Shown here: piece by piece, positions 19,440 through 45,005 of the stretch
Layout: each line of letters opens with the position of its first letter
How positions within the stretch are numbered: position 1 is the stretch's first letter
IMG/VR virus record: IMGVR_UViG_3300025909_000007
Span: 1-59,345 of that record
Source: a virus
Reading direction: 5' to 3' (one strand)
DNA length: 59,345 nucleotides
Made by a program: the position numbers and the translations under genes
The notes under the pieces: model-generated
What the model was told of the DNA's origin: nothing
What the model saw: only the letters and a program-made list of their open reading frames with translations
The model's database searches: none

Positions 19440-19930
19440 GTAACAGTATTGGGATTGCCTTCACAGCACAATTCACACGAACTTATATCGCACAATTTAA
19501 CGCCCTGGGTGAGAGCCTTTTCATACTCCAACTGGTAATGATCTTTCAACTCCTGCACGTCTTTTATATCCAGCGTGGTAAACCGGTTGATGCGTGATGA
19601 ATACAGCCGGAACAACATTAACTGGTTCCCCAGTAAATACTTCCACGCCTGCAACAGCTTGCGTTTATTGTTACAAATGAGCGCATCGTAATCACAATAC
19701 ACATTCAATTCGTAACACCGGTTCATTTCGCTCATGAAATCCACTTCGAAGCGCGTATACGCTTCGGCTTGTACGTCGGCCCAAACGGCCCTGTACGTTA
19801 TTTGATCGGGCGTGGCAATCTTGTCAATAGATTCAAGGCTAATGCCGGGCAGTGAATTAATCCACCCACCACCCGGCGCCTCGTCTGTTGAACAGACCTT
19901 GATCCCAATATAGTCAGTCAGGCAGCTCAT
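19427..19930 (-). CDS. Putative head-tail adaptor, 167 aa
   Basis: Directly downstream of the major capsid gene (stop and start overlap by one base), where adaptor/connector proteins (HK97 gp6 type) sit. Helical centre (MSEMNRCYEL, LLQAWKYLLGNQLMLF) and an unusual Cys-rich C-terminus (CDISSCELCCEGN). The Cys cluster might bind zinc or form disulfides in the virion neck. Confidence 0.57.
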   Translation of the reverse strand: MSCLTDYIGIKVCSTDEAPGGGWINSLPGISLESIDKIATPDQITYRAVWADVQAEAYTRFEVDFMSEMNRCYELNVYCDYDALICNNKRKLLQAWKYLLGNQLMLFRLYSSRINRFTTLDIKDVQELKDHYQLEYEKALTQGVKLCDISSCELCCEGNPNTVTWLP

Positions 19931-21102
19931 TAAAAGCCAGCGTATGCGTAAGCGCCCAAAGGAACTGCAGAATTGGTTGTACCGCCGGCATCCGCTACGT
20001 TGGTAACGAAATACTTCAGCGTACCGTTGCTACCGCTCAGTTGATCGTCAGCAGCATAAGCGCTGGTGGGCTGTACCCACAGGGCAAACTCTTTGCTGAT
20101 AATAACTTCCCAGCCGCGATTTACGGTCGTGTTAACGCCGTTTACCGTTACGGTGGTAGGGCAGTCGATGTACTTCAGCTGCAAATCAAAAATCAGGTTG
20201 CGCATACAGTCGTCGATATTGCAACCGAATTCCTGTACAGGCAGCGGGAAGGTAGTGAAGAACGAAGTTCCACGCTGACCTGCGAAAGCGCCCTGATATT
20301 TATTGCGGCCGATGAACTTAACGCTGCCTTTAGCCAGCACAGCGATAGAGTTCTGACCCCAGATTTGCTGCGTGTCTTTGTCGAACCAGAACTGTGGCAT
20401 GCCCAGTTTGCTAACGTCCATACCGGCCTGATTGCAACAGGTCATCGCCTGGGCAATGTCAAAGCCAGCGAAAAGACCTCCACCAACGATACAAGTATCG
20501 CCGCAGATTTCATTTTCCTGGATGTCGCGCATTAACTGTACAACGCCGTTGTCCAATACATACTTATTGCCGTCGCGGGCAATGTTGATGATTTTACCAG
20601 TGGCGCTGCCGGTAGTGGTGTTGTTGCCAAATTGGGTAGCCATCTGCGTAACCGTTACCCGGTTTACAGCTTTTACCAAGATGTTGGCGTGCTCCAAAAT
20701 AAGGTCGTACACTTCGTTCATCACCTGGGTAGGTGGCTGACCGGTGGTAACGCGGGCGCTGGCGTCAGCGCAATAGCGTTGGATGGTAGCGTCGTCCAGG
20801 AAGAACGAACTCTGAACATGCGTAGGTGTACCTACGGTCCATTCAGCATACGCCGGAATGCGGTTAATATCACAATCGTCTTCGTACTGCACGGCGCTGA
20901 GCGTCGGGCGTACACGATAGCGAACGGTTAAAGGGCGGGTGTGTGCGCCGTCATTAGTCTGGTTAACAGGATTGACAGCACTATTCTGGCAACAAAAAAG
21001 CGCGGCCAGGAAACCCGATATATGCAGTTTGCGTGAGGGCGCATTGCTTTCCGCAACAGCTTCTATGTTGGTAAGCAGCGCCGGACAAAAGCCCAATGCC
21101 AT
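19930..21102 (-). CDS. Major capsid protein
   Basis: 390 aa, the size expected for an HK97-fold shell protein, flanked by a scaffold-like gene upstream and head-tail joining genes downstream. Contains an alpha-helical spine-like stretch (PPTQVMNEVYDLILEHANILVKAVNRV) and long beta segments. It has about a dozen cysteines, including CC pairs (FCCQNS, MTCCNQ), many more than usual for capsid proteins. I did not identify the family by motif. The call rests on size, place and overall pattern. Confidence 0.72.
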   Translation of the reverse strand: MALGFCPALLTNIEAVAESNAPSRKLHISGFLAALFCCQNSAVNPVNQTNDGAHTRPLTVRYRVRPTLSAVQYEDDCDINRIPAYAEWTVGTPTHVQSSFFLDDATIQRYCADASARVTTGQPPTQVMNEVYDLILEHANILVKAVNRVTVTQMATQFGNNTTTGSATGKIINIARDGNKYVLDNGVVQLMRDIQENEICGDTCIVGGGLFAGFDIAQAMTCCNQAGMDVSKLGMPQFWFDKDTQQIWGQNSIAVLAKGSVKFIGRNKYQGAFAGQRGTSFFTTFPLPVQEFGCNIDDCMRNLIFDLQLKYIDCPTTVTVNGVNTTVNRGWEVIISKEFALWVQPTSAYAADDQLSGSNGTLKYFVTNVADAGGTTNSAVPLGAYAYAGF

Positions 21103-22096: not shown

Positions 22097-22168
22097 TTAT
22101 CTGCTTGGTTTTGGTCTTGGCCTTGGTTTACCGCATCCGCTACACGCGGTGTGAGTTGACTGTATCAT
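22097..22168 (-). CDS. Tiny CxxC protein, 23 aa
   Basis: ATG at 22168, overlapping the stop of the upstream gene (TAATG). The peptide contains CSGCGKP followed by a run of Pro-Arg/Lys repeats. Very short proteins of this shape sit next to capsid genes in other Bacteroidota phages to my memory, but I cannot verify that. It is a half zinc knuckle that would need to dimerise to bind metal. Confidence 0.42.
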   Translation of the reverse strand: MIQSTHTACSGCGKPRPRPKPSR

Positions 22169-22419
22169 TATTTCAGTTTTACCTTGGTTTGCGTAGGCTG
22201 CGGGGTGTTCGTTTGACCGAAGCCAGTAGTAACGGTTTCAATAATGTGCTTTAAGTGGGTAGGGCGCAATTGATTTTCGCGTTCAAAAGCCTTGCGCGCT
22301 TCCAGCGGGGCGAACTGCACGGAGATAACAGGTCTTTGTTGCGCGTCATACAAAAGCGTAGTGCCATCGCTGGTCTGAGGGGTAGAAATTCTTAAGTGGT
22401 CACCCTGGAAATAAGACAT
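22168..22419 (-). CDS. Small capsid-operon protein, 83 aa
   Basis: First gene of the capsid operon in the - direction, 85 bases from the divergent + strand gene at 22505. Soluble; ends with a Thr/Gln-rich, basic tail (TNTPQPTQTKVKLK). No family. Could be a head accessory or decoration protein. Confidence 0.58.
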   Translation of the reverse strand: MSYFQGDHLRISTPQTSDGTTLLYDAQQRPVISVQFAPLEARKAFERENQLRPTHLKHIIETVTTGFGQTNTPQPTQTKVKLK

Positions 22420-22454: not shown

Positions 22455-22485
22455 TTTGTAATACAATTCCTTAACTATACATTTG
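22455..22485 (+). promoter_or_regulatory. Bacteroidota-type promoter of the glycan cassette
   Basis: TTTG at 22455-22458, a 19-base spacer, then TACATTTG at 22478-22485. This equals the TTTG-N19-21-TAnnTTTG consensus for the main sigma factor of Bacteroidota. It lies 19 bases upstream of the ATG at 22505 and would drive the + strand module to 28946. Confidence 0.75.
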
Positions 22486-22504: not shown

Positions 22505-22684
22505 ATGGCAAAACGAGTTTCATACCACTTAACCTCCATCCCGCCGGACGTAAAGCAATTTATTTTAGAGTTTCAGGCCCAAAAGAAAAAGGAAAAGGGC
22601 GCTATCATGTACGGGTTTAACCAGGCTATTTATGAAATCGTTCGTGATTATAAACGCTGTTCAATGCAGGAAAAAAGTAAATAG
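22505..22684 (+). CDS. Small putative DNA-binding protein, 59 aa
   Basis: Starts 19 bases after the promoter -7 box. The sequence (KRVSYHLTSIPPDVKQFILEFQAQKKKEKG, then a helix NQAIYEIVRDYKR) has the strand-helix-helix outline and basic character of ribbon-helix-helix proteins. It is the first gene of the glycan module and may autoregulate it through the palindromes upstream. That is inference from size and place. Confidence 0.55.
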   Translation: MAKRVSYHLTSIPPDVKQFILEFQAQKKKEKGAIMYGFNQAIYEIVRDYKRCSMQEKSK

Positions 22685-22685
22685 T

Positions 22686-23219
22686 ATGGAGGACTGGAAA
22701 GACATAATAGGTTATGAAGGACTCTACCAGGTTAGTAACATGGGAAATGTAAAATCTTTGCCCCGACTTACACGCGCATTAAATGGTGCCATAATGCCGT
22801 TTAAAGGCAAATCATTAATTCCACAAATTGACAAGGGCGGGTATTGCAGGGTATCGCTAAGAAAAAATTCAATTGCTATTCTTCATTCTGTACATAGGCT
22901 TGTGGCAATGCATTTTTTACAAAACCCATATAATTTTGATGAAGTAAACCATAAGAATGGTATAAAAACTGATAATAGAGCAACCGAACTAGAATGGTGT
23001 AATAGGTCTTACAACAAAACACATTCGTATAGAGTATTGGGTCAGAAAAAAATGAATGGCGTAAATAGTGGTATGGCAAAAGTTACTCCATCTGATATTG
23101 CAAATATGAAGATTGATTATCAGACAATGAAATCTTACTCGAAAGTTGGCACAAAATATAATATCAGCGGAACTCAAGCATGGAGAATATTAACTAAAAA
23201 AGCATGGCAACACTTATGA
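22686..23219 (+). CDS. NUMOD4-HNH homing endonuclease
   Basis: 177 aa from ATG 22686, one base after the previous stop. An in-frame ATG at 22632 would overlap the previous gene by more than 50 bases. The N-terminus is a NUMOD4 motif (EDWKDIIGYEGLYQVSNMGNVKS). The centre has the HNH nuclease (HRLVAMHF, VNHKNGIKTDNRATELEWCN). The C-terminus is an HTH-like part. Free-standing selfish element at the head of the glycan cassette; its stop overlaps the GT2 start. Confidence 0.88.
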   Translation: MEDWKDIIGYEGLYQVSNMGNVKSLPRLTRALNGAIMPFKGKSLIPQIDKGGYCRVSLRKNSIAILHSVHRLVAMHFLQNPYNFDEVNHKNGIKTDNRATELEWCNRSYNKTHSYRVLGQKKMNGVNSGMAKVTPSDIANMKIDYQTMKSYSKVGTKYNISGTQAWRILTKKAWQHL

Positions 23220-23908
23220 ATATTTCTCTTTGTATTACAACATATCAGAGATACGACTTACTACTCGAATCCTTTCAACATGTACTAAACAACCCGCGTA
23301 TAACAGAGATCATCATCGTAGATGATTGCAGCCTGCCGGAGTATTGGAAAAAGATTGAGCAACTACCAAAACTCAACGATAAAATAAAGGTTTACCGGCA
23401 GGCTGCTAACCGGGGAATGAGCCGCAACAAGGCTGATGCCATTGCTTACGCTTCCAATGAGTGGGTGATAATACTCGACTCAGACAACGTGATTGATGAT
23501 CGGTATTTAGTCGGACTGGATGCAATCGAAAACCCCGTGAAGGATTTAATATACATGCCGTCTTTTGCCTGGCCGAATTTTGATTACCGTGGATGGGCAG
23601 GGTCAGTGTACTTCAAATCAAGCGCCGCTGCATTGGTGTGGCAAGATACATTCAACATGCTACTTAACACCTGCAACTTTTTCGTCAACCGTGACGAGTA
23701 CGCGCGGGTGTATCAGGAGAATCCAGCACACCGGGCAAGTGACACTATCTGGATGAATTACCTTTGGTTAAAGGCTGGCAATGGTTTCTATGTGGTACCG
23801 GATTGTACATACTTCCACCGTGTGCATGACGGTAGTGGGTTTATGGAACAGGCAGCGTATAATATGGCGCAAGCAGAAAATGTAAGGAAATTAATAAGTG
23901 AATTATGA
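23216..23908 (+). CDS. Family 2 glycosyltransferase
   Basis: 230 aa from the ATG at 23216, which overlaps the previous stop (ATGA). An ATG 12 bases earlier is possible. GT-A fold motifs are clear: ISLCITTYQRYDLL, the first aspartates in IIIVDDCS, NRGMSRNKADAIAYA, and the metal-binding DSD in WVIILDSDNV. The C-terminal half has an acceptor-site pattern (ASDTIWMNYLWLKAG). It transfers a sugar from a nucleotide donor. Donor and acceptor are unknown. No membrane helix, so it acts in the cytoplasm. Confidence 0.87.
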   Translation: MNISLCITTYQRYDLLLESFQHVLNNPRITEIIIVDDCSLPEYWKKIEQLPKLNDKIKVYRQAANRGMSRNKADAIAYASNEWVIILDSDNVIDDRYLVGLDAIENPVKDLIYMPSFAWPNFDYRGWAGSVYFKSSAAALVWQDTFNMLLNTCNFFVNRDEYARVYQENPAHRASDTIWMNYLWLKAGNGFYVVPDCTYFHRVHDGSGFMEQAAYNMAQAENVRKLISEL

Positions 23909-24345
23909 GTGATAAACATCTTTACGGTGCTGGATATGAAACAACTTTATTAGCCAAAATAAAGAAAAAGTTTCCTGAAGATGTTGCAATCAACTTTCTA
24001 ATTAACTCAATAAAAGAAAATAAGATAAAAGTTGGTGAATTGATTTCAGAAAATGCTGAATTGAAGGATAGGGTAAGCGCTCTTGAAATAGCTGCTATGA
24101 ACAAACACAAGCATTTTAAAAAAGTAGAAAACGAGGCGGATCGATTAAGAAAAGAAGTCGTTGAATTACGTGTAAAGGTAGCTGATATTCCATTTACACA
24201 TCTTAGGTGTTCGGAGGAAACTGAAAAGCTAAAAACAAAATTAAAAATTATACAGACTGAATTAAACAATGTAAGAAACAAGTATGTGGCTATATTACGA
24301 ACCTTCAAATTAACCCCAGTAAAAAAAGATAATGGTAAGTGTTAA
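23905..24345 (+). CDS. Coiled-coil protein in the glycan cassette, 146 aa
   Basis: Two long coiled-coil stretches (about 35-90 and 105-135) with heptad leucines and charged residues, no membrane segment or enzyme motif. It overlaps both neighbours by 4 to 14 bases, so it is translated with the glycosyltransferases. It could hold the enzymes or their protein acceptor together. No family recognised. Confidence 0.62.
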   Translation: MSDKHLYGAGYETTLLAKIKKKFPEDVAINFLINSIKENKIKVGELISENAELKDRVSALEIAAMNKHKHFKKVENEADRLRKEVVELRVKVADIPFTHLRCSEETEKLKTKLKIIQTELNNVRNKYVAILRTFKLTPVKKDNGKC

Positions 24346-25078
24346 CCTAATCGGCCGCCTTGGCAACCAGTGTTTTCAAATCAGCACGGCCTTGGCCTAT
24401 GCTGCGAAATACGATTTAGAACTACACATACCAGCGCAAACATTGAATCCGCAGGCATGGCCAATGGGTGTGCCCCATTTGGCATGTAAACCCATCAAAC
24501 GCAATTGGTGTGTTTATAATGAACCCTCGCATGCGTATACTGAAATACCGGCGCCAACTTGCGAAAATGTTTTACTGAACGGCTATTTTCAAAGCGCAAA
24601 ATACTTCGATGAGTACCGCCAATTGGTGTTGGACAATCTTGCCTTCCCCTGGATGCCGCTAAAAGACATGGTGGGCATACATGTCCGCCGGGGGGATTAC
24701 GTCACAGACTTCCCCGATAAGCACCCGTTCGTCGGGTACGATTACCTTTCAACCGCTATTAAAGCAATGGTGGATCGTGGGTATAAATCGTTTGTGGTTT
24801 GCAGTGACGATATTAGCTGGTGTCGTAAAAATTTGGACGTACTACGGTTAACGGGTGCGGAATTTTCGTACAGCGTTGGCAAGTCGCCGCATGAAGATTT
24901 AAGTTTGTTGAGTTGTTGCCGGCATCAGATATGCAGTAATAGTTCGTTCAGCTGGTGGGCGCACTACTTAAACAGACATGAAGATAAAGTTGCTATTATG
25001 CCTGCGCGTTGGTTCGGACCGGGGAACGAACACCTTGCAACCGATGATATTTATTTTGAAAATGCGATTGTAATATGA
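24332..25078 (+). CDS. GT11 alpha-1,2-fucosyltransferase-like enzyme
   Basis: 248 aa. Starts with the GT11 signature LIGRLGNQCFQISTALAYA and contains GIHVRRGDYV (the HxRRxDY GDP-fucose site), a DDISWCRKNL segment and SNSSFSWWAHYL, all in the usual family order. GT11 enzymes add L-fucose in alpha-1,2 linkage. The length is slightly short for the family (often 270-300). Its stop overlaps the methyltransferase start (ATGA). Confidence 0.88.
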   Translation: MVSVNLIGRLGNQCFQISTALAYAAKYDLELHIPAQTLNPQAWPMGVPHLACKPIKRNWCVYNEPSHAYTEIPAPTCENVLLNGYFQSAKYFDEYRQLVLDNLAFPWMPLKDMVGIHVRRGDYVTDFPDKHPFVGYDYLSTAIKAMVDRGYKSFVVCSDDISWCRKNLDVLRLTGAEFSYSVGKSPHEDLSLLSCCRHQICSNSSFSWWAHYLNRHEDKVAIMPARWFGPGNEHLATDDIYFENAIVI

Positions 25079-25602
25079 ACCTCGACGAATTAGCAATAAA
25101 ATATGGTAGTGATAAAAGTAGTTTAGGGCATGGGTACATGAACTTTTATAGTAATACGCTACCGGATAATATATCGTCAATCATGGAAATCGGCGTTTTA
25201 AAAGGCGCTTCTATTAACGTTTGGAAAGAAGCATACCCTGAAGCAAATATTTGGGGCGTTGATTTGTTTGAAGAAAATCCAATACCAGAAATTGATGGTG
25301 TTAATTTTTTAAAGGGTAATCAATTAGACCATGAACTCTTATATCACATAAGAAATGATATAAAGCCGCAAATAATTATCGAAGATTGCAGCCATAATTG
25401 TATTGACCACTGGGTAACAATGTTTAGTTTAATAAGCTGTTGTGAATTGTACATCATCGAGGACCTGCACACTTGCACAGAAGTTTTTTACAGGCAGGGA
25501 TTACCTTTTGAATCAACAATACTGGGGGCTATAAAAAATAATACATTCCCATTTAAATTTGCATTGAGCTTTAATGAAAAAATTGTTTCTATATGGAAGT
25601 AG
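25075..25602 (+). CDS. Class I SAM-dependent methyltransferase-like protein
   Basis: 175 aa. The segment SIMEIGVLKGASINVWKEAYPEANIWGVDL is motif I plus the acidic end of strand 2 of a Rossmann methyltransferase. IIIEDCSHNCIDHW matches the post-motif found in CmcI/macrocin-O-methyltransferase-like proteins acting on sugars. Together with its place in the cassette, it probably O-methylates a sugar of the glycan. Slightly truncated relative to family lengths (about 200-230). Confidence 0.75.
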   Translation: MNLDELAIKYGSDKSSLGHGYMNFYSNTLPDNISSIMEIGVLKGASINVWKEAYPEANIWGVDLFEENPIPEIDGVNFLKGNQLDHELLYHIRNDIKPQIIIEDCSHNCIDHWVTMFSLISCCELYIIEDLHTCTEVFYRQGLPFESTILGAIKNNTFPFKFALSFNEKIVSIWK

Positions 25603-26183
25603 AAATATGGAAACCTGTAGGTGGGTTTGAAAACTATTATGAATGCAGTTCATTCGGTAGAACAAAAAGGTTATCTGTTGTTCGACCAATGATTAGTAAG
25701 GGCGGAGGCATTACTGAAAGGTATTACGCTGAAAAAATACTGTCACCTCAATCTCATATAAACAAATACATGTTTTTAAATTTATCAAAAGATGGGAAGG
25801 TTTACTATTTCAGTGTTAGCAGACTGATTGCATGTCATTTTGTTTCTAATCCTGAAAACAAAGAACAAGTTAATCATATAGACGGAGATGTTACAAACAA
25901 TCGAGCCGACAACCTTGAATGGGTAAGTCCATCTGAAAATATTCAACATTCGTACGACGTTCTAAACCGTCCTGTGGTTAGAAGTGGGGAAAGTAGGATG
26001 GGTAACAAAAGCAAACAGTCTAAACCTGTATTACAATATTCTTCCACAGGTGAGCTATTAAAAGAATACGCTTCTGCCGGAGAAGCTGCAAGGTCATTGT
26101 CTATAAGCCAATCACAAATATCTCTTTGCTGCGTTGAAACTTTCCGACGTGCAAAAGGATTTAAATTTCAATACAAATGCTAA
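25593..26183 (+). CDS. NUMOD4-HNH-NUMOD1 homing endonuclease
   Basis: 196 aa. NUMOD4-type N-terminus (EIWKPVGGFENYYECSSFGRTK), HNH region (VSRLIACHFV, VNHIDGDVTNNRADNLEWV), then a C-terminal NUMOD1-like helix-turn-helix (SAGEAARSLSISQSQISLCC). It overlaps the methyltransferase by 10 bases and the next frame slightly. It is the second HNH element within the cassette and only distantly similar to the first. Confidence 0.88.
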   Translation: MEVEIWKPVGGFENYYECSSFGRTKRLSVVRPMISKGGGITERYYAEKILSPQSHINKYMFLNLSKDGKVYYFSVSRLIACHFVSNPENKEQVNHIDGDVTNNRADNLEWVSPSENIQHSYDVLNRPVVRSGESRMGNKSKQSKPVLQYSSTGELLKEYASAGEAARSLSISQSQISLCCVETFRRAKGFKFQYKC

Positions 26184-26215
26184 TCCTCCTATCCGCAATA
26201 ATCCGCAAATATAAA

Positions 26216-27565
26216 ATGAACATCACCGGCGTCATACACGTGGGCGGGCACTATGGCGAGGAGGATAACGATTATCTGAACCACGGCATACGTAATCGAC
26301 ATTATTTTGAAGCCAATCCCGCACTGTTCGATACGCTTGTAGCCAATACGCCAGGTGCGAAGCAATATTGCACCGCTATCGGTTCCGCAACCGGGATATT
26401 ACCCATGCACGTGGAAACGTACAATCAGGGCCAGAGCAGTTCGCTGTTAAAGCCGGGCACGCACTTAAAGCATTACCCGCTGATTACGTTTGATAGTATG
26501 GTGACAGTGGAGGTGCGTCAATTGGATTCGTTCAACATTACCGATTGCAATTTTATGAATCTGGATGTGCAGGGATATGAATTGGAGGTATTGAAGGGCG
26601 CTAAGGAAACGTTACGCCACGTTGATTATATTTACACCGAAGTCAACACCGAGGACGTTTACGAGGGTTGTGGCAAACTGCCTGAAATGGATGCCTTCTT
26701 ATCCGAATTCCAGCGCGTTGAAACCGTTATGACCGGTCAGGGTTGGGGCGATGCCCTTTACATTCGCCGCCGTTCCGCTTCCTTTGAACAGGTGCCGGTT
26801 GAATTCCGTCCGCACCACCCGATGCAATACCCGGCCGATAATGATTTGATATTCGAAGAATGGTATGCGCAACAACCACAGCCCACAGCCGGCCGTACAT
26901 ACCTGCCCATATTTTGGACAAGCTATTATTGCAAACATAAGTATGGGAAAGACGCCGGAGCAGTTCAGCGGTTGCAGTCGTACCTAAATGGATTGGATCG
27001 TAATAAGCGCTATTATACAATCCTTCAATACGACGACGGCATCCTTAACGAAATTAGCCATCTTGATATAAAAGTATTTGCCGCCTGTGGTAACCGTATC
27101 GACTACCCGTTGCCGTTAATATGTAAGCCGCATGGGTTTACGTTTCCGCCGGTGAAAGATATTTTTTGCAGCTACATTGGCACAAATAATCATCCGTTAC
27201 GCGCTGCACTCATGCGCTACCAACATCAACCGGGCTGGTACATTAGCTCACAGCCGCACAGCCTGCGTTCGTACTGCGAAATGATGGCCCGGTCTAAGTA
27301 TGTACTATGTCCACGCGGGTACGGCGCTACCTCATTCCGTATTATGGAGGCGCTGCAATACGGGGCCATTCCGGTATACATAAGTGATGTATTTATATTG
27401 CCGCATAATTATTTTGAATACGGCGTGCTGGTGGAACAGCCTGACGAAAAACTGCCGGCGCAACTTGAATCTACAACAGGCTTAATGCCTACCGGTGAAG
27501 CATTTGAAAAATATTTTACTTACGAAGCGAATAAAACAATCATTCATGGAGAACTCAACAAATAA
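26216..27565 (+). CDS. FkbM methyltransferase fused to exostosin-like glycosyltransferase
   Basis: 449 aa from ATG 26216 (an earlier in-frame ATG at 26177 adds 13 residues that overlap the HNH gene). Residues about 1-190 are an FkbM-type methyltransferase: GVIHVGGHYGEED, HYFEANPALF, VRQLDSFNITDCNFMNLDVQGYELEVLKG split over the core, and YIYTEVNTEDVYEG. Residues about 220-445 resemble an exostosin/GT47-like GT-B domain: PRGYGATSFRIMEALQYGAIPVYISD is the characteristic nucleotide-sugar site. One chain may both extend and methyl-cap the glycan. Confidence 0.82.
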   Translation: MNITGVIHVGGHYGEEDNDYLNHGIRNRHYFEANPALFDTLVANTPGAKQYCTAIGSATGILPMHVETYNQGQSSSLLKPGTHLKHYPLITFDSMVTVEVRQLDSFNITDCNFMNLDVQGYELEVLKGAKETLRHVDYIYTEVNTEDVYEGCGKLPEMDAFLSEFQRVETVMTGQGWGDALYIRRRSASFEQVPVEFRPHHPMQYPADNDLIFEEWYAQQPQPTAGRTYLPIFWTSYYCKHKYGKDAGAVQRLQSYLNGLDRNKRYYTILQYDDGILNEISHLDIKVFAACGNRIDYPLPLICKPHGFTFPPVKDIFCSYIGTNNHPLRAALMRYQHQPGWYISSQPHSLRSYCEMMARSKYVLCPRGYGATSFRIMEALQYGAIPVYISDVFILPHNYFEYGVLVEQPDEKLPAQLESTTGLMPTGEAFEKYFTYEANKTIIHGELNK

Positions 27566-27644
27566 CAAAGGCGGCTGCCTGATGGCGGCCATAGCAATTG
27601 CGCTGGTAATATATGGCATTTACGTACTAATTAGCTTGGCATGA
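27546..27644 (+). CDS. Micro-membrane protein, 32 aa
   Basis: ATG at 27546 within the end of the previous gene, stop overlapping the GT7 start (ATGA at 27641). Short polar N-terminus, then a single hydrophobic helix (MAAIAIALVIYGIYVLISLA). It could tether cassette enzymes to the membrane. Supported only by overlap pattern and a clean helix. Confidence 0.52.
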   Translation: MENSTNNKGGCLMAAIAIALVIYGIYVLISLA

Positions 27645-28213
27645 CAATCATCGTCCCTTACCGCGACAGGCCGGAACACCTGGAAAAGTTTACAGCCGCT
27701 ATGCGTGATCATACCGTTGTGGTTGTTGAACAGGCGCCAAGTAAACCCTTCAATCGGGGCAAACTGATTAACATCGGCTTCATAGAAACGCAGCCCGCTT
27801 ACTTTTGTGCGCACGACGTTGACATGATTCCTATTGGCGTTGACTATACACCCGCGCTGGGTGTGACGCAGCTGGCCGGTTCAGCTATACAAATTACGGG
27901 CTACCTGGGCGGGGTTACCATGTACGATACCGATACCTTCCGTTTTATAGGTGGCTACCACAATGAATACTTCCATCGTGCCGAGGATAATGAAATGGCG
28001 TTTAACCTGGCTCGGTTACAAATACCGGTCGTGTACCGGATAGGCACTTTTATCGACCTGCCCCACGAACGCACCGGTCCGGAGTTTATCCCCCATTTAT
28101 GGGTAAAAGCCCAGCGGCCTCGACAAATACAAAACCAGTTGAGTATTTGCGAGTACAAGGTTTTAAGCCGCCATATTAATGGAAACTTAACGCATATTAT
28201 TGTTGAAATTTAA
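27641..28213 (+). CDS. GT7 beta-1,4-galactosyltransferase-like enzyme
   Basis: 190 aa. Motifs in the order of the GT7 family: IIVPYRDRPEHL, FNRGKLINIGF, the metal site FCAHDVDMIPI, TGYLGGVTMYD, and GGYHNEYFHRAEDNEMAFNLARL, which stands for the WGGEDD(D) acceptor-site motif. GT7 enzymes transfer galactose or N-acetylgalactosamine in beta-1,4 linkage. Shorter than animal enzymes and soluble, as expected for a phage. Last enzyme of the cassette before the Ig-like genes. Confidence 0.85.
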   Translation: MTIIVPYRDRPEHLEKFTAAMRDHTVVVVEQAPSKPFNRGKLINIGFIETQPAYFCAHDVDMIPIGVDYTPALGVTQLAGSAIQITGYLGGVTMYDTDTFRFIGGYHNEYFHRAEDNEMAFNLARLQIPVVYRIGTFIDLPHERTGPEFIPHLWVKAQRPRQIQNQLSICEYKVLSRHINGNLTHIIVEI

Positions 28214-28248
28214 TTAATTTTAATCTTTTAACGTTAAAAAAACATACA

Positions 28249-28569
28249 ATGCCACTTACATTATCAAGCACCACAAAGGAAAAGATCCTGGTAAAATTAT
28301 CTCCTGTAGATTCTACAGGCGCCGCTGCCACGTTGGACGGTGATGCAACTTTTGAAGTTGTGTCTGGCGGGGCGACTGTTGAAAAAGTAGACGCACTTTC
28401 CGCTTACATCGCTTCTGAAGATTCAGCCGGTGTGTCAACTATTAAAGTTTCCGCCGATGCCGATCTGGGCGAAGGTGTTGAAACCATTGACGACACTATT
28501 GCTTACTCTTACAACGCACCCAAAGCGACCAACCTGGGACTGGTAGCCGATGCGCCAATTGCTAAGTAA
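28249..28569 (+). CDS. Ig-like (decoration-type) protein A, 106 aa
   Basis: All-beta protein with the strand pattern of an Ig-like/Big_2-type domain (KILVKLSPVD, ATFEVVSGGATVE, VSTIKVSADADLG, IDDTIAYSY). The C-terminus is NLGLVADAPIAK, closely like the end of the next gene's protein. Small single Ig domains in phages commonly decorate capsids or tails. It is Thr/Ser-rich, so it could be an acceptor for the glycan. It lies 35 bases after GT7. Confidence 0.68.
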   Translation: MPLTLSSTTKEKILVKLSPVDSTGAAATLDGDATFEVVSGGATVEKVDALSAYIASEDSAGVSTIKVSADADLGEGVETIDDTIAYSYNAPKATNLGLVADAPIAK

Positions 28570-28573
28570 AATT

Positions 28574-28606
28574 ATAATGCGGTGTCTGAAACCGGCGCCG
28601 CATTAT
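28574..28606 (+). terminator. Hairpin between the two Ig-like genes (weak terminator or attenuator)
   Basis: ATAATGCGG (28574-28582) pairs with CCGCATTAT (28598-28606), a perfect 9-bp stem with a 15-base loop. There is no long T-run after it, so it probably only attenuates expression or protects the transcript end, setting a higher level of the first Ig-like protein than the second. Confidence 0.5.
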
Positions 28607-28625
28607 TCACCTCAAAAAACGTGTT

Positions 28626-28946
28626 ATGCAAGTTGATATATCACTTTCAAACGTAAAAATCTACAACATTAGCCGGGTGGATGTTGTAAAGGGGCAGAAG
28701 TTCAAACTTATTACAGATAGCCCTGACAAAATAGAATGGTTTTCAAACGGAGACGCATTTCTTTCTTTTGTCGAACACGATAAAAGTGCTGACGTTGAAG
28801 CCACCGCTACTGGACGCGTATTGGTAAAATTATTCAAATCTGATTTTAGCGGCGTTGAAAAAACGCTGGAAATAAACGTGCTTGATTCTATTCAGGAACC
28901 GGCTGCCGACCTTGGGTTGAGCGCGAGTGATCCTGAACTAAAGTAG
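28626..28946 (+). CDS. Ig-like (decoration-type) protein B, 106 aa
   Basis: Same length as protein A and the same all-beta layout (VDVVKGQKFKLITDSPDKIEWF, ATATGRVLVKLFKSD, LEINVLD), ending in DLGLSASDPELK. The shared tail suggests a common docking peptide. The core identity with protein A is low. Ends the + strand cassette just before a strong bidirectional terminator. Confidence 0.66.
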   Translation: MQVDISLSNVKIYNISRVDVVKGQKFKLITDSPDKIEWFSNGDAFLSFVEHDKSADVEATATGRVLVKLFKSDFSGVEKTLEINVLDSIQEPAADLGLSASDPELK

Positions 28947-28968
28947 GTTTTTTAGCGGGTAGTTTTTT

Positions 28969-28998
28969 AAAAGGCGCTGTCTTCGGATGGCGCTTTTT
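28969..28998. terminator. Bidirectional terminator with TTCG tetraloop
   Basis: AAAAG (28969-28973), bulged G, CGCTGTC (28975-28981), loop TTCG, GATGGCG (28986-28992), CTTTTT. The stem has one bulge and two G-T pairs, and the C(TTCG)G loop is extra stable. T-rich on both strands. It separates the convergent ends of the glycan cassette and the MuF gene, and the MuF stop codon touches it. Confidence 0.85.
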
Positions 28999-29968
28999 AG
29001 TTAGCTCCCTTCCACCTCTTATACGCCGGGGTAGCATACACGACTTCCCGCACCGCCAGCGGCACATTCCTTTCTGGAACTGGTCGCGGCTGATGTCCAC
29101 AATTCCAGCCCCCAGCATTGGTAAGAAAATTATCGGGTGAAGTACCTTCAATAAAACCAATAGGCAATCCGGTCTTTGGGTTCACCCGCACCGTTTTTAA
29201 TTCGCCTGTTTTAAAATCGTGGTATGTCAGCGGTTCGCCATCGGCTGCGTGCGCTGTTAACAGTTGCGGTATCTGCGAAATATGAAAGTATCTGTTATTT
29301 TCAACCATTGCCTGGCAGAAGGGTCGGCTGGTTTCAATCTCGCTACCCTGGTAACTATACCATTCGAAGCCGAGATCATTAGATGTCGTTTGCGTATACT
29401 GCCGGGAATATTGATTCAGCGAGGTCTTGGTAATCGTGGTGGTAAACTTCTCTAATAACCCGGGCGTTTCAGTAGTCAGTAGCTGCTTACCAATTGCATC
29501 CTGCATGGCTTTATACGAACCGCCGGTGGTAATATTCATGCGCAGCAGGTCGCCTATCGGGTTTGTTACATTCGCCTCAATACCCATATCGGTCAAATGC
29601 GCTACGGTATCGCGGATGGTTTGTATGCGAATTTGCTTTAGTATCGGCTTCGGAGTAAATTTCTGCTCCACGCTTTTCCAATACTCATTTTGTAACACGG
29701 TAACGGCGTTAAACGACTGCACGAAATCTTTAACATCCTGCAAATAATCGGGCGTAACAATCAGCCGATGTAACTTATTTTTAATCGACTGAATGATTTT
29801 TAAATTGTCTACCGTGGGTTTGATGGTGGCATCATTAGTCAAATCCAACCGCCGCAACTCTAAGTTAATAGCATCATACATCGCCCGCTGCGTATCGGGA
29901 ATGGTACGGTTAAATTGCTTTACGGCCCGTTTTATTTCACTAAGAATATCTTCAAATGACCTGGCCAT
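28997..29968 (-). CDS. MuF-type minor head protein
   Basis: 323 aa. The C-terminal third carries the MuF (Mu gpF / SPP1 gp7) pattern: helix with SLNQYSRQYTQ, SRPFCQAM, then GGWNCGHQPRP with the Cys and His that typify the family. The N-terminal 180 residues are helical. These proteins bind the portal and are packaged in the head. It overlaps the portal gene by 17 bases, as expected. Confidence 0.82.
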   Translation of the reverse strand: MARSFEDILSEIKRAVKQFNRTIPDTQRAMYDAINLELRRLDLTNDATIKPTVDNLKIIQSIKNKLHRLIVTPDYLQDVKDFVQSFNAVTVLQNEYWKSVEQKFTPKPILKQIRIQTIRDTVAHLTDMGIEANVTNPIGDLLRMNITTGGSYKAMQDAIGKQLLTTETPGLLEKFTTTITKTSLNQYSRQYTQTTSNDLGFEWYSYQGSEIETSRPFCQAMVENNRYFHISQIPQLLTAHAADGEPLTYHDFKTGELKTVRVNPKTGLPIGFIEGTSPDNFLTNAGGWNCGHQPRPVPERNVPLAVREVVYATPAYKRWKGAN

Positions 29969-31772
29969 ACAAATTATTTAACGGGTCGGCACCATCGTCA
30001 ACGGGCACTAGCGCATCCGTGGCAGCAGTGATTTGTTCCTGCGCATACTTAATTAATACAGCCCGCTGTTCGGCCAGTTCCATTTCCACAAACTTATCAT
30101 TGTCGTCAATAGCGCGCTGAATAAATTCCTGAATATTGCTACTGATTATATATGTTTCCAGGGTGATGCCCTTATTACTTAACCGCGTCATTTTATCTTC
30201 GTCGGTTACGTTCGGCAACGGGTCTAGCGTTAGGATAAGCGAAAGCCTATCCCGCACCTCCGGTTCGCTGTTAAAGCGTTTACCCGCGTAATCAATTTCG
30301 AGGGCGGACAATAACGCCGGATTCACTTTGGCATTCTTGCTGTCCACCAGTTCTTTTTGCAATACACCGGTACTAAGTAAATCGAAATTAGTGGGCACCT
30401 GTATCACCGGCAGCATTTCTTCAATTTGCTCAGGTGTATACAGCACCCGGTAACGGTACAGCGCAATCGCCCGGTAGACGTTGTCCATAATAGCCACCAA
30501 GTCTTCGGCCACCGCGTTCGCCGTGTTGCTACTTTCGTCACGGTCAACCGACTTGGCCACGCCCGATTGTGAAAGCGGCGTGTCCGCCAGGAATTCAAAA
30601 TTGATAGCCGCCAGCGCGTCGTTAATATGGTCTTTTACGCGCTGATCTTGCAATTTGATAATCTCTACGTCCTTTTCAATGTACCCAGCTGGCGGGGATG
30701 GGATAGGCGTTTGTCCTTCGGTAGCGCTGTTGGGCGGCCGCACCATTATCTTACTGTACGGCCCGGCTACCACGTAACCCTGGTTACAACCCGTCGCGGT
30801 ACAGTTTATTTGAGGTTCACAGCCGCACTCCGGCCCGGTGTATTTAGGGTTCGGCCGTATGCCGGTGCCCTTACACGCCTTGCATTCATTTTGCGTATAT
30901 TCCCACCGTTCGGCGTATAACTGCGTCACCACGCCCGCTTGTAAATCTGAATACTCACGCGAAGCCTCGTCCAGTCCAGGCACCATCCCCGCAATACGCG
31001 ATTCATACAAAAAATGGGAATCGGCCTGGTCGATAATAACACCCTTTAATTTAAAAACGGGCAGTATACCCAGTGAGTGGATATAGTTTTGCGTAAGTTT
31101 AAATTCACCCCGGCCGTTGAACTGTTCATACCGGAAAATATTTTGTGTGGTCACGAAGTAATAAGCCCGACCGCGCTGGAGCTTACCCTTGCTATCATAA
31201 TAAGTAGAGCCTTCTGGCGCCTTTAAGATAGCATAATCTTCCGGCGCAAAATACAACACATTAGTGCTTTCAAATATAACCGGGAATGGTTTTAAATATT
31301 CGTTTTCGGCCACCTCGTACGTAATCGGGTAAACGAAAATTACCGCGTTGGGATCTATTAAATACTTCCGCAACAACAATTGAAAAACCCAATTCGTCAC
31401 ACTGCTGAAGTAGGGAAAATTATACTCGCAATACATTTCCAGCGTTTCATCTTCGGCCACGCGGGCAAACTGATCCAAATTTTCATAACGAATAGACCAG
31501 TCCTGTGACCGGCGTATTTTTTGCAGCGATGCATACACCTTACTGAACGTAGGCTTCGTGATTGGCTTAAATATTTTAGCCCGGTATTCCAACACTTCTG
31601 ATGGCTCGTTGGGTCGGCGTTCACGAATTAGCCTTTCAGGGAAAATGCCATCCGCATGCACGCGCATGTCTTCACATTTTTCCTGGCATAGTTTATAGAA
31701 CGGCCCATAGGCTTCTGGCCTGTCTTTTACAATGTCGTTTACCTCGGCTTGCGAAAAAATTAGTTTAGGCAT
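29952..31772 (-). CDS. Portal protein with zinc-finger insertion
   Basis: 606 aa, next to the MuF gene. Layout fits a portal (stem/crown region about 370-480 with long helices, INDALAAINFEFLADTP and EDLVAIMDNVYRAIALYRYRVL). Residues about 305-345 hold an insertion with CKACKGTG, CGCEP, CTATGC, a DnaJ-like cysteine set that could bind one or two zinc ions. I know of no such element in classical portals. Forms the 12-subunit ring for DNA entry and exit. Confidence 0.78.
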   Translation of the reverse strand: MPKLIFSQAEVNDIVKDRPEAYGPFYKLCQEKCEDMRVHADGIFPERLIRERRPNEPSEVLEYRAKIFKPITKPTFSKVYASLQKIRRSQDWSIRYENLDQFARVAEDETLEMYCEYNFPYFSSVTNWVFQLLLRKYLIDPNAVIFVYPITYEVAENEYLKPFPVIFESTNVLYFAPEDYAILKAPEGSTYYDSKGKLQRGRAYYFVTTQNIFRYEQFNGRGEFKLTQNYIHSLGILPVFKLKGVIIDQADSHFLYESRIAGMVPGLDEASREYSDLQAGVVTQLYAERWEYTQNECKACKGTGIRPNPKYTGPECGCEPQINCTATGCNQGYVVAGPYSKIMVRPPNSATEGQTPIPSPPAGYIEKDVEIIKLQDQRVKDHINDALAAINFEFLADTPLSQSGVAKSVDRDESSNTANAVAEDLVAIMDNVYRAIALYRYRVLYTPEQIEEMLPVIQVPTNFDLLSTGVLQKELVDSKNAKVNPALLSALEIDYAGKRFNSEPEVRDRLSLILTLDPLPNVTDEDKMTRLSNKGITLETYIISSNIQEFIQRAIDDNDKFVEMELAEQRAVLIKYAQEQITAATDALVPVDDGADPLNNLYGQVI

Positions 31773-31775
31773 TGG

Positions 31776-32627
31776 TTACATTAGTTGCCTCTCAGGGAGG
31801 AATGACTTTTTACTTATTAACGGGAATACGTGTTGTACTCCCCTTTTCATACAGGCCACGCGCACCAGGCGGTCGTATAAATTCTTGCTTACTTCGCTGG
31901 CATGGTTAGCGCCGAACGAAGCCAGGTAATAGTTGCGGTACAGCAGCGAGAAGTCCGGTATCTTACCTTCGTTCATCAAGTGCCAGTAGGCCGGGATCCA
32001 TTTATATTGGTGCGGGTGTACGTTAAATATCCCGCAGGCTACCACCAAGCCGAGTTCGTCGGCCGTACCCTGGGCGTATAGTTTTTCGGTAGCCAGCCGG
32101 GGCGCCACAAATACTTCACGCGCTTTAGCCAATAGTTCATCGGCATTTTTATTGAAGTACATTACCTCACTCCGCCATTGGTATAATTTATCACAGGCGA
32201 TCGGGTAAGTAGCGCGAATATCGCTTTCGTCCGCCCATAAAAAATATTTAGGGTGCAAGTTGTCCGGCGCATACCCTTCGGTAATAGCCGTAAAGTCGTT
32301 TCCCTCCAGTTCATCAAACAATTGGGAAGGCTTTTTCTCCGGCAACCATAACATGTCAGCGTCCAGCACCAATGTGTTTTCGTACGGGCTAATAGTGTTC
32401 AACCACAATTTAGCTCCGCAACTTATGGGAGCGCCGCTGGGCAGCTCTGCTATATTATCAAATACCGATAGCTGGTATTCCGATAAATGGGAAAGGCTGT
32501 GCGGGGTACGCATCACCGTTATATCGCAAGACGGTTCAATCGCCTTAATCGTCATGGCCAGGTTGTACGCCATTCGGCCGTAATAAGGGTGCCCAGTAAC
32601 CGCGACGCAAATGCCGTTTTTTAGCAT
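31776..32627 (-). CDS. GT8-like glycosyltransferase within the structural operon
   Basis: 283 aa. GT-A fold with the metal motif in NTLVLDADMLWLP, AKLWLN and SPYENT preceding it, and a distal acceptor-side part (IFNVHPHQYKWIPAYWHL). Resembles glycogenin/GT8 or related NDP-sugar transferases. It sits between portal and an FN3 structural gene, 3 bases from the portal start and overlapping the FN3 gene by 7. It is thus made with virion proteins. A role in glycosylating a virion protein is inferred from place. Confidence 0.7.
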   Translation of the reverse strand: MLKNGICVAVTGHPYYGRMAYNLAMTIKAIEPSCDITVMRTPHSLSHLSEYQLSVFDNIAELPSGAPISCGAKLWLNTISPYENTLVLDADMLWLPEKKPSQLFDELEGNDFTAITEGYAPDNLHPKYFLWADESDIRATYPIACDKLYQWRSEVMYFNKNADELLAKAREVFVAPRLATEKLYAQGTADELGLVVACGIFNVHPHQYKWIPAYWHLMNEGKIPDFSLLYRNYYLASFGANHASEVSKNLYDRLVRVACMKRGVQHVFPLISKKSFLPERQLM

Positions 32628-33841
32628 GGTTCTATATATTGCCAGTTATGAAATCTTGGATCTGCCCCTTCAACTACAATACTTACTGGACTGCCAGGTG
32701 AATTCTCCAGCACACATATATACCGCTGTACGCCGTTAATTAAAACATCCGACTGCGCGAAGCCAGAACAATTCGTATACTGCACGTGTGAATTCATGTA
32801 AGGGAATTCCGGATTTGCATAGAACACAGAGTACCTACCGCAGGATGTTGTCGGACCACCGGGTCCGCCCGATGGGATCAGTGTAGTGAAGTTCACCGAC
32901 ACATAATTCGATACCGTATCGGGGTCGCACTTACTTTGTACGTAAAAAATATACGCGGTGCCGGACGATAGCACGGATGTAAATAATACCGTTAACCCCA
33001 GTGCATCACCTTCTAAAAATGGCGCCCCGGGACTATCCTGACGAAATAATTGCCAATGATACCCAAGCGCGGGCGGGATAGATGGTTCGTTCCATACTGC
33101 GCGGGCACCATCTCCTGAAATGGTATTAATAGCCGGGTCGGTAGGTGCCAAACAAGCCGGGATTGAACCGTCAATATCAGCGTAAATATCGGCTTCGTCA
33201 TATCCGCCATTGGGGCAGGTGGCTCGGTAGGTGGCCAGCTTTAAACCATTGGCATCGGCCAAAGGCGTTTTTAACACCATCGTCACCACACCCAGTGAGG
33301 AAATTACGGCGCTTTGTACAATATCAGCGTTGTAATAAATGATTGAGAACGCTACCGGGTAACAACAAATATCGTCGTTGGTAGTAACATCGCGCACGGT
33401 AGTGCTGCCTTCGTTTAGTGGCGTACGAGTGTAGGGCGTTGTTTGTGACCAATCATCGTCGGTTAAACTTAATTGAGTAACTTCTTCACACGTTTGGCAG
33501 TTGCTATTGGTAGCGTCAAACGGTGAAACCTCTACCTTAAATTCAGCGGGCGCTGTACGACGGTTGAACCGGTCTTGCCAGTTGATTTGATAATCGCCAT
33601 TCTGCACCACGTCACCAAAATATTCGCTGGTTTCGATAGTAGTCTGATCGCTGGCCAGAGCAATTTTAAAAGCCTCATGCCAGGTGCCGGGCCACCAATC
33701 GGTAGCACCCTGTAATATTTTTGATATCACCACCGACTGCACAATCGACTTGCCATCGGCACGACGATACACATCGCGAACCTCTTTGTATTGAGGCCGG
33801 TCAATGGTGAGGGGCAGGCGGATTCGGTTACGATAAGCCAT
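32621..33841 (-). CDS. FN3-containing tail/virion protein, 406 aa
   Basis: Begins with a conserved structural N-terminus (MAYRNRIRLPL) seen also in spirit at 34578 (MAYRIISPRF). A fibronectin type III domain spans about 225-330 (LAPTDPAINTISGDGARAVWNEP to NYVSVNFTTL). Cys-rich (CQTC, CC, CPNGG). Likely a tail-tip or appendage protein. FN3 domains in phages bind carbohydrate or decorate the particle. Confidence 0.65.
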   Translation of the reverse strand: MAYRNRIRLPLTIDRPQYKEVRDVYRRADGKSIVQSVVISKILQGATDWWPGTWHEAFKIALASDQTTIETSEYFGDVVQNGDYQINWQDRFNRRTAPAEFKVEVSPFDATNSNCQTCEEVTQLSLTDDDWSQTTPYTRTPLNEGSTTVRDVTTNDDICCYPVAFSIIYYNADIVQSAVISSLGVVTMVLKTPLADANGLKLATYRATCPNGGYDEADIYADIDGSIPACLAPTDPAINTISGDGARAVWNEPSIPPALGYHWQLFRQDSPGAPFLEGDALGLTVLFTSVLSSGTAYIFYVQSKCDPDTVSNYVSVNFTTLIPSGGPGGPTTSCGRYSVFYANPEFPYMNSHVQYTNCSGFAQSDVLINGVQRYICVLENSPGSPVSIVVEGADPRFHNWQYIEPC

Positions 33842-34565
33842 TGGTTTTATTTATAGTTGCAGTTCGCGCTGATACTCTTTTTGCTACATGTTCCGGGCTT
33901 TGTTTTTTACCTCTTATCCAGTTGGCTTTACTCCCACTTTCAGAAATTTTCTTTTTTGTTTTTTCTGAAAGCGCCACCCCCTTTCTTGGCGATGGCTTTC
34001 CCATATGAGAAATACTTTGTTTAATTCGGTATTCTTCACTGCGTGGAGGCAGTTTTCTACCTTTGGATTTAATAGATATTTTATTCCGATGATCATCGCT
34101 AAGTTTTCTACCGACTAAGGCTTTTGAAATGTTTGTCTTCCTTTTTTCCGTAAAAGCAACATTTCTTCCAGACTCCCTCATTTTGGCTTTAGTTTCTTCA
34201 GACCTTTTACTACCGATTTGATTTTTAATTCGTTTTTCTACATGTTCAATCGACTGTTTAACACCCTTTGGACTTGATACAATTTCGCAAGTGTTAAGCA
34301 TAATAAATCCAGCATCTTTATATAAATCAAAATACAATTGCTCGTAATCTGTTAACACCTTATTTGTAACGTCATTAGGCAGATGGTGAACTACTGAAAA
34401 TTTATGATTGTCAAATCCATGCTTATAAAATGACTTGTATAGTAAACTATTATATTGCCTATTGTTATAAGAGCATCTATGAGCATTTTCTCTTTGTTTT
34501 ATATTAAAAGATTGACCTATGTATACTTTACCCGTCGGACTTTCAAACTTATATATTCCTGTCAT
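33828..34565 (-). CDS. GIY-YIG homing endonuclease with NUMOD3 repeats (copy 1)
   Basis: 245 aa. GIY-YIG catalytic part at residues 1-90: TGIYKFESPTGKVYIGQSF, an Arg, and a Glu in YEQLYFDLY. Then at least five NUMOD3 DNA-binding repeats (SEETKAKMRESG, SDDHRNKIS, SEKTKKKISESG, SPEHVAKR). A+T-rich compared to neighbours. It overlaps the FN3 gene by 14 bases, so it inserted between two virion genes. Paralogous to the element at 41809. Confidence 0.9.
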   Translation of the reverse strand: MTGIYKFESPTGKVYIGQSFNIKQRENAHRCSYNNRQYNSLLYKSFYKHGFDNHKFSVVHHLPNDVTNKVLTDYEQLYFDLYKDAGFIMLNTCEIVSSPKGVKQSIEHVEKRIKNQIGSKRSEETKAKMRESGRNVAFTEKRKTNISKALVGRKLSDDHRNKISIKSKGRKLPPRSEEYRIKQSISHMGKPSPRKGVALSEKTKKKISESGSKANWIRGKKQSPEHVAKRVSARTATINKTNGLS

Positions 34566-41520: not shown

Positions 41521-41812
41521 TGTGCACCGTTATTTCGTCTTTCGGCCATAGCCTCATTACTACCACATTCAAACCCATGGCCGGGATAACTGTTAACAAC
41601 CAATCCCGCACATTCACGCCGAACGCCAGCCAGTAAATGGCAGTCCCATAATAAGGCGCCATACACACCGGGCATTCATGCAGCGGCTGTTGTATCCAGC
41701 CGGGTAACGTGCGTTCAAACCACCGGCCGAGGCTGCCGAATATTTCACCCTCTAGCATTGTGTACCAGATGGCGAAGATGATGAGCGATATTATGGCGAT
41801 GTGTTCAATCAC
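41510..41812 (-). CDS. Membrane protein with CPVC motif, 100 aa
   Basis: Two hydrophobic segments (about 3-20 and 55-88). Between them HECPVCMAPYYG places a Cys pair near the membrane surface, a pattern seen in DUF1360-like proteins. An integral membrane protein in a tail gene cluster is unusual. It could act at entry or in lysis. The 4-base overlap with the GIY-YIG gene implies recent insertion of that element. Confidence 0.57.
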   Translation of the reverse strand: MIEHIAIISLIIFAIWYTMLEGEIFGSLGRWFERTLPGWIQQPLHECPVCMAPYYGTAIYWLAFGVNVRDWLLTVIPAMGLNVVVMRLWPKDEITVHNDY

Positions 41813-42516
41813 TTAGATTCCTTTCTTTTAGCCCAAGACGCTTTTAATTTTTCACTTTTCTTTTTACGCGTTTCTTCTGATTGTATTGGCCCCTTTTTAC
41901 CGAGCCAATATCTTGCATTGTTTGCGCTTACCTTCATCTTTGTTTCGTCTGAATGTTTTTTACCCGTATTAATAGCCCTTAATTTTTCCCTGGTTTCATC
42001 AGATACAATAACCACCTTAGCATTTAATTTCCTTGTGGCGACCCCTTTGGCAATAGATTCTTTTGTGGGTCTAAAACTTGGGGCTTTTACTATTTTTTGT
42101 TTAGCGCGTTTTTCTTTAATCTTTTGAATAGATTCTGGTGTATGTTTTTTGCCTTCCATTGGCGACTTCCAACCTGCCCTGATTTCTGATGATCTTTTTT
42201 TAACATCTTCCCTATGCTTAAAACCTCTCATTGTTGCTGATGCAGGATTTGCATTTAAAAGCGTTGCGCCCGCATCCCTATACAAATCAATGTATAATTG
42301 TTCATATGTTGTTAAAGTTTTTGAATCTACATCACCAGGTAATTCGTGGACTACCTCAAATTTGTGCGCCTCAAATCCATGTTTCTTAAAAGATCTAACT
42401 ATAGGCGTGTCTAACCTTTTATTATAAGAATGAAAACTCCATCTTCTTTCAATATCAACACTCTGCCCAATATACACATTTCCGGTAGGGGAAGTTATCT
42501 TATATATGCCTAACAT
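41809..42516 (-). CDS. GIY-YIG homing endonuclease with NUMOD3 repeats (copy 2)
   Basis: 235 aa. LGIYKITSPTGNVYIGQSVDIERRW is the GIY-YIG core and YEQLYIDLYRDAG holds the catalytic Glu. NUMOD3-like repeats follow (SDETREKLRAIN, SDETKMKVS, SEETRKKKSEKL). Domain order and many residues match copy 1 at 33828, so the two are paralogues. Inserted between two small structural genes. Confidence 0.9.
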   Translation of the reverse strand: MLGIYKITSPTGNVYIGQSVDIERRWSFHSYNKRLDTPIVRSFKKHGFEAHKFEVVHELPGDVDSKTLTTYEQLYIDLYRDAGATLLNANPASATMRGFKHREDVKKRSSEIRAGWKSPMEGKKHTPESIQKIKEKRAKQKIVKAPSFRPTKESIAKGVATRKLNAKVVIVSDETREKLRAINTGKKHSDETKMKVSANNARYWLGKKGPIQSEETRKKKSEKLKASWAKRKESK

Positions 42517-44710: not shown

Positions 44711-45005
44711 CGGCCAGGTCTTTGCCTAATTTAATTCCGCCAGAATGTTCAACGGGCTGCTTCGCCTTTCCATACGCCCGGTCCATCAGCAGTTCTGCAG
44801 CCCGAACGTCGCCTTTGGCGGCCTTTTGGCGAAGCGCCATAAGTATAGCCTGGGCAGCGGTTACGCCGTCCTTTTCCTCGCCCAAAACCTCTGCTAGCAA
44901 GGCTTCCAGCGCAGGCAGCTTGCGCGGTGCGCCTTTGACATTTCGCCTCGGATCTACCCCTTTTTTAAATGGCTTCAGGTTGCCATCTTGTTTCGGATTC
45001 CTCAC
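44694..45005 (-). CDS. Putative terminase small subunit (DUF5681-like)
   Basis: 103 aa. GNLKPFKKGVDPRRNVKGAPRKLP resembles the start of DUF5681 proteins, which have N-terminal G-rich basic residues. The rest is helical with an HTH-like core (VTAAQAILMALRQKAAKGDVRAAELLMDR). It sits directly before terL, where the DNA-recognising small subunit is expected. Confidence 0.7.
   Translation of the reverse strand: MRNPKQDGNLKPFKKGVDPRRNVKGAPRKLPALEALLAEVLGEEKDGVTAAQAILMALRQKAAKGDVRAAELLMDRAYGKAKQPVEHSGGIKLGKDLADEFTD

Follow-up and report, generated by a model that had tools for sequence, protein, structure and literature searches.

A conserved cassette of glycosyltransferase and methyltransferase genes among the head genes of a phage family that probably infects Bacteroidota

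The virus record IMGVR_UViG_3300025909_000007 of IMG/VR, analyzed here in its entirety (59,345 bases, linear, maybe a fragment; hereafter the window), carries on its plus strand a cassette of sugar-modifying genes set among phage head genes of the minus strand. Five genes between positions 23204 and 28213, identified from open reading frames (ORFs) and Pfam/PHROG matches, encode a GT2 glycosyltransferase (GT), a GT11-family protein, a methyltransferase (MT), a fusion of FkbM and GT47 domains and a GT7, all in the same direction and with touching or overlapping ends. A first-pass annotation, made from the letters alone, had described one plus-strand operon with four GT families, two MTs, a coiled-coil protein and a micro-membrane peptide. 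Pfam, PHROG and transmembrane (TM) profile scans recovered all of these ORFs and domains, and the enzymes are codirectional, as described; the operon also holds two NUMOD4/HNH homing endonuclease genes that had gone unlisted. Related loci, cited here by G and L numbers, were gathered by profile scans with the capsid protein, the portal protein and a portal-linked GT described below (headGT), which yielded more than 100 loci on contigs that may be incomplete. The cassette genes, with E values of the profile matches, are:

22505–22684, plus strand: small protein of 59 residues, first gene of the cassette; RHH-like by eye only, 39% identical to G001 71044–71262
22686–23219, plus strand: NUMOD4/HNH homing endonuclease (PF07463, 2.7e-17; HNH_3, 1.2e-4); the ORF may open at 22632, with 22686 as the likely start; missing in most relatives
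23204–23908, plus strand: GT2 glycosyltransferase with a DSD motif (PF00535, 1.9e-21); DSDN invariant in 6 phages
23905–24345, plus strand: coiled-coil-like protein, specific to the window (weak coiled-coil matches only); relatives have unrelated small genes in this slot
24332–25078, plus strand: GT11 fucosyltransferase-family protein (PF01531, 6.2e-34; phrog_2644, 2e-36); RRGDY invariant in 6 phages
25075–25602, plus strand: MycE/demethylmacrocin-type sugar O-methyltransferase (phrog_21658, 9e-19)
25593–26183, plus strand: NUMOD4-HNH-NUMOD1 homing endonuclease (Pfam)
26177–27565, plus strand: fusion of an N-terminal FkbM methyltransferase (PF05050, 2.5e-13) and a C-terminal GT47 exostosin (PF03016, 5.1e-13)
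27546–27644, plus strand: micro-protein of 32 residues with a single TM segment (KD19 2.68), specific to the window
27641–28213, plus strand: GT7, beta4GalT-like (PF13733, 4.8e-11; PDB beta4GalT7, 2e-10)

Several of these enzymes were compared with the motifs of their families. A profile built from the MT at 25075–25602 and its G001 homologue matches MycE (PDB 3ssm, 8.6e-14) and demethylmacrocin O-methyltransferase (8ia9, 8.7e-12); besides this catalytic-domain match, the D..SH and ED motifs of MycE/TylE-type enzymes align, with D, SHN and IED invariant in the alignment. The GT11 carries the nucleotide-binding motif HxRRGDY. The GT7 has a DVD metal motif (DID in G001) and FNRG, with RAEDNE in place of WGWGGEDD. 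Across relatives the GT7 slot holds two kinds of enzyme, one that keeps GWGGEDD (G006–G009) and one with RAEDNE (window, L067 and G001), a difference that perhaps reflects a changed donor or acceptor. The FkbM–GT47 fusion recurs in L067 (63% identical), and FkbM and GT47 are separate genes in G001, G006, G007 and G009. A hydrophobic segment of TM strength was found in none of the cassette enzymes, GT2 included, and only in the 32-residue peptide.

On the minus strand, the genes around the cassette run in the order GT8-like gene, portal, MuF-like gene, [plus-strand cassette], small pre-scaffold gene, scaffold-like gene and capsid candidate:

31776–32627, minus strand: headGT, a GT of predicted GT8/glycogenin fold with a DxD motif, directly upstream of the portal gene
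29952–31772, minus strand: portal protein (phrog_7376, 2e-12)
28997–29968, minus strand: MuF-like head gene, which borders the insertion site on one side; 50% and 42% identical to its G001 and G004 homologues; MuF by position, with no Pfam match
22168–22419, minus strand: small pre-scaffold gene, which borders the site on the other side; G001, G004, G010 and G012 have homologues at this position
19930–21102, minus strand: major capsid protein candidate, assigned by its position behind the scaffold-like gene; 56% identical to the G001 and G004 homologues; C-terminal tail GAYAYAGF

The relatives show this site both empty and filled. The MuF-like, small, scaffold and capsid genes are contiguous in L005/G004 (capsid protein 56% identical), and G001, at similar identity, carries the same cassette at this position, on the strand opposite to the head genes. 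The first-pass claim that the cassette splits the head genes into two blocks is thereby borne out.

The same order of domains, GT2–GT11–MT–FkbM–GT47–GT7, is found at the MuF/pre-scaffold site in eight phages (window, G001, G006, G007, G009, L067, L070 and L132), and order and site recur in the loci L022/L024/L025; contigs that end within the cassette include G008, L109 and L129. A separate scan of viral contigs with a GT47 profile recovered G001 only, because its patterns fell in a variable stretch. The closest relative, L067, is a contig of a metagenome-assembled genome (MAG) of Taibaiella (Chitinophagaceae, Bacteroidota), with a portal and a headGT about 60% identical to those of the window. 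Homing endonucleases, the coiled-coil gene, the TM peptide and Ig-like genes are all missing from its cassette. When the window is compared with L067, the cassette genes diverge by 0.31–0.46, 0.25–0.33 and 0.60–0.67 at the first, second and third codon positions, and the structural genes by 0.28–0.36, 0.23–0.29 and 0.60–0.69. Because the two patterns resemble each other, the cassette genes are taken to be under purifying selection, as a working part that is kept and not as decaying cargo. Judged by this comparison of genomes, the cassette is a real, conserved unit of five genes and six enzyme domains in one order at one site, and the homing endonucleases and small orphans (including two genes labelled ‘Ig-like’ in the first-pass annotation) look like additions outside the conserved core.

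The host is probably a member of the Bacteroidota, likely a soil bacterium, because L067 belongs to the Taibaiella MAG, a bin being weak evidence of host, and because promoters and signal peptides are of Bacteroidota style. TTTG-N19-TANNTTTG is the form of Bacteroidota promoters, and a match to it lies at 22455–22485 (plus strand), within the 85 bp that separate the cassette from the divergently oriented small pre-scaffold gene; a similar spacing is visible by eye in G001. The consensus promoter named in the first-pass annotation thus has its match, which is weak by itself, as five occurrences are present in the window where 2.05 would be expected, and a Bacteroidota-type promoter ahead of the cassette is suggestive, not strong. 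Scans of sigma-70 promoters and terminators gave results no better than shuffled sequences. The 59-residue protein encoded first in the cassette has no Pfam match and has homologues in G006, G007, G009, G010 and G012. In G010 and G012 a small RHH-like gene remains at the MuF site, on the opposite strand and without a cassette; neither GT2 nor FkbM was found on these two contigs, which may be incomplete. Such a gene is possibly a regulator or an anchor of the site.

A second gene set occurs in this family besides the type I set described above. In G003, G004 and G011, a type II set lies behind the terminase gene (TerL) and comprises a GT2-like protein, DUF5672, an unknown protein, Methyltransf_24, a STELLO-like GT, a MycE-type MT and FkbM. 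Type II genes are found at the MuF site in L078, and in G026 a type I set lies behind the terminase, with a GT25-like gene nearby and GT7 missing; for this reason two sites in the virion gene block are seen to accept either type of cassette. At the MuF site of L077 and L079, only GT7 and MT are left among the modelled families. Shortly past the type II cassette of G004, a Ser/Thr-rich repeat protein is encoded at 28142–29383 (L016:8142–9383), and shorter homologues directly follow FkbM in G003 and G011.

The headGT is found directly upstream of the portal in 69 of 90 portal neighbourhoods (which may include near-duplicates) and in three more on reversed contigs that the script missed; the remainder are without it. 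Its gene usually overlaps the end of the preceding gene, which encodes a virion-type protein of 406 residues. An AlphaFold model from a 12-sequence alignment (pLDDT 85.7, pTM 0.88) has glycogenins and other GT8 enzymes as its nearest solved structures (Foldseek E 7e-10, TM-score ~0.5), and the DxD motif is kept in all 12 aligned sequences. Searches with the sequence gave no Pfam family, no GT8 match and a best PDB profile match of E 0.14, so that the likeness to GT8 is one of fold and not of sequence. Glycogenin puts glucose on a protein tyrosine, which makes a protein-priming role for headGT, as suggested by the modelled fold alone, an attractive one.

Taken together as a biochemical class, the cassette enzymes very probably assemble, in the cytoplasm and from host sugar nucleotides, a short oligosaccharide that bears fucose and O-methyl groups. 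As soluble proteins they would draw on host nucleotide sugars and S-adenosylmethionine, with GDP-fucose as the donor for GT11 and probably UDP-galactose or UDP-N-acetylgalactosamine for GT7, and their product would be branched, with one fucose and at most two O-methyl groups. Less certainly, headGT would attach the first sugar, and a virion protein synthesized concurrently would serve as acceptor; for a putative acceptor in the virion we see about even chances, the grounds for this placement being genetic and not biochemical. A glycan coat of this kind would protect the particle or adjust its surface properties. The first-pass annotation had offered two destinations for the sugar, the phage’s own virion or the host surface. 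Decoration of the virion is the better of the two, because the scans revealed neither a flippase nor a lipid carrier nor a membrane GT, and because most members of the family keep the GT8-like gene next to the portal. The scanned window proteins include no lipid-carrier, flippase or nucleotide-sugar gene, and a soluble GT/MT set conserved in the head block fits the synthesis of such a glycan by the phage; the part of the first-pass proposal which named Ig-like proteins as acceptors did not hold.

A more specific version concerns the capsid. Cassette phages close to the window have Tyr-rich capsid tails (YAYPV, YAYAGF, SYAYAG, TYAYGYPR, NAYGYGYAQ, SSYGTGY), and most other capsids of phages with headGT end at NGTLRYTITNS or similar. 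Where PMC12619734 and PMC11256854 cite Freeman et al. 2023, the glycans of mycobacteriophages are placed on the C-termini of capsid and tail-tube proteins. HeadGT might start an O-glycan, perhaps on the tyrosines of the YAY/YGYGY tails, and exchangeable cassettes might complete it into different methylated oligosaccharides, a self-contained cytoplasmic glycosylation of the capsid; in this full form the proposal is unlikely.

Several observations weigh against decoration of the virion or against the capsid tail as its place. HeadGT is kept in G010 and G012, where no cassette was detected, and is therefore independent of the cassette. L126 has glycan genes and G026 a type I cassette, each with a capsid that has no Tyr-rich tail, and L128 has the tail with only a methyltransferase found at the site. 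The Tyr-rich tail as a marker of the cassette is weakened by these three loci and is kept as a lead only; shared ancestry could lie behind the remaining agreement. The last gene of some cassettes (L022, L024 and L025) begins with a signal peptide, as seen by eye, which fits a role in the envelope, and cyanophage clusters with GT2, GT11 and FkbM are generally regarded as changing the sugars of the host surface (PMC7824862). The signal peptides and the cyanophage precedent both favour the other destination, namely modification of lipopolysaccharide (LPS), capsule or surface glycoproteins of the host during infection or lysogeny, with exclusion of other phages. It also counts for remodelling of the host surface that bacterial polysaccharide loci commonly include GT2, GT11 and FkbM genes. 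However, TM profile and Pfam scans turned up neither a membrane GT nor a flippase, polymerase or ligase, the nucleotide-sugar enzymes of the cyanophage clusters have no counterpart here, and the cassettes, where examined, occupy one of two positions inside the virion gene block. We consider host-surface remodelling the main rival, possible though on balance unlikely.

Two further accounts would do without a glycan on either surface. If the GTs and MTs decorated the bases of phage DNA, the weak TET-associated-GT match of one type II GT (E 0.003) would find its place, and phage GTs can add diverse glycans to DNA, as PMC12619734 states in the passage citing Pyle 2024. Nevertheless, such hypermodification is very improbable because no base-hydroxylating or dNMP-modifying enzyme (hydroxymethylase, TET/JBP, 5hmdU kinase) was found among the window proteins scanned, a set that includes some of the small ORFs, and the MT resembles macrolide-sugar enzymes. 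The genes might instead be loose cargo with no common product, accumulated at a place where insertions are tolerated; homing endonucleases and small orphans do accumulate there, and the trees or distances of GT2 and GT7 differ somewhat from the portal tree. The order and content of the six domains are, however, kept across deep divergence and under selection like that on structural genes, and we regard the cargo account as improbable.

The arrangement resembles several known systems in part. Virion glycosylation in mycobacteriophages (Che8, Rita and related phages; Freeman et al. 2023, as cited in the papers above) likewise relies on phage-encoded GTs, with a glycan on the capsid protein that is reported there and proposed here, and in mycobacteriophage McProf relatives of the MycE-type MT adjoin a GT gene. 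Compared with what those papers relate of the mycobacteriophages, host phylum and phage family are different, the head genes enclose a fixed cassette of six domains, GT11, GT47 and GT7 among them, a GT8-like gene stands beside the portal, and the system is known from genes alone. Chlorovirus PBCV-1 glycosylates its capsid autonomously by means of soluble GTs, a sugar methyltransferase and multi-domain GT/methyltransferase proteins, and its capsid glycan contains fucose and a methylated sugar (PMC7019647). Virus-encoded soluble GTs, a sugar methyltransferase and multi-domain GT/methyltransferase proteins are common to both; unlike the window phage, PBCV-1 is an unrelated eukaryotic nucleocytoplasmic large DNA virus with its own GDP-fucose enzymes. 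The LPS/glycan clusters of cyanophages P-SSM2 and S-H68 contain relatives of the window FkbM (45% identical to PSSM2_267 of P-SSM2) and GT11, yet these clusters are large, vary in order, include nucleotide-sugar epimerases and dehydratases and form no fixed insert in head genes, whereas the cassettes of the window and L067 are free of nucleotide-sugar genes. The Gtr operons of O-antigen conversion are also phage-borne GT genes that alter sugars; unlike them, the window cassette has no GtrA flippase, GtrB or membrane GtrC, and its GT2 is without a TM segment.

Portal, headGT and GT7 gave no tblastn match among 50,697 GenBank phage records, and a search for near-matches at the DNA level likewise returned none. 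Neither the arrangement nor the phage family has a precedent in the collections searched; phage glycosylation clusters as such are already known. Glycosylation of phage virions is documented, in the papers cited above, in mycobacteriophages, and if it holds here it would characterize a whole family of phages from another host phylum, on the basis of a fixed cassette among capsid genes, interchangeable versions at two sites and a GT beside the portal. It would also be a source of compact, soluble enzymes that make methylated and fucosylated glycans, and would allow the role of virion glycans in environmental phages to be tested directly.

Two genes of equal length follow the cassette and stand outside its conserved core:

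28249–28569, plus strand: protein of 106 residues, called Ig-like in the first-pass annotation, of no family, with a single homologue (33%) in G009
28626–28946, plus strand: orphan protein of 106 residues, with no relative found

The label ‘Ig-like virion-type’ is not supported for either, as neither has a Pfam or PHROG match and the AlphaFold model is meaningless (pLDDT 32.5). The G009 homologue of the former lies downstream of the tail genes, where its neighbours encode small membrane proteins, and away from the G009 cassette, and every relative in which the cassette end is covered lacks the linkage between cassette and Ig-like genes. The two proteins were rejected as glycan acceptors on these grounds. 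Homing endonucleases of the HNH/NUMOD or GIY-YIG kind number at least five in the window (3929–4510, 22686–23219, 25593–26183, 33828–34565 and 41809–42516), two of them within the cassette. The window also encodes two N6/N4 DNA methylases, one at 45002–46222 with a ParB-like N-terminal part and one at 53250–53927.

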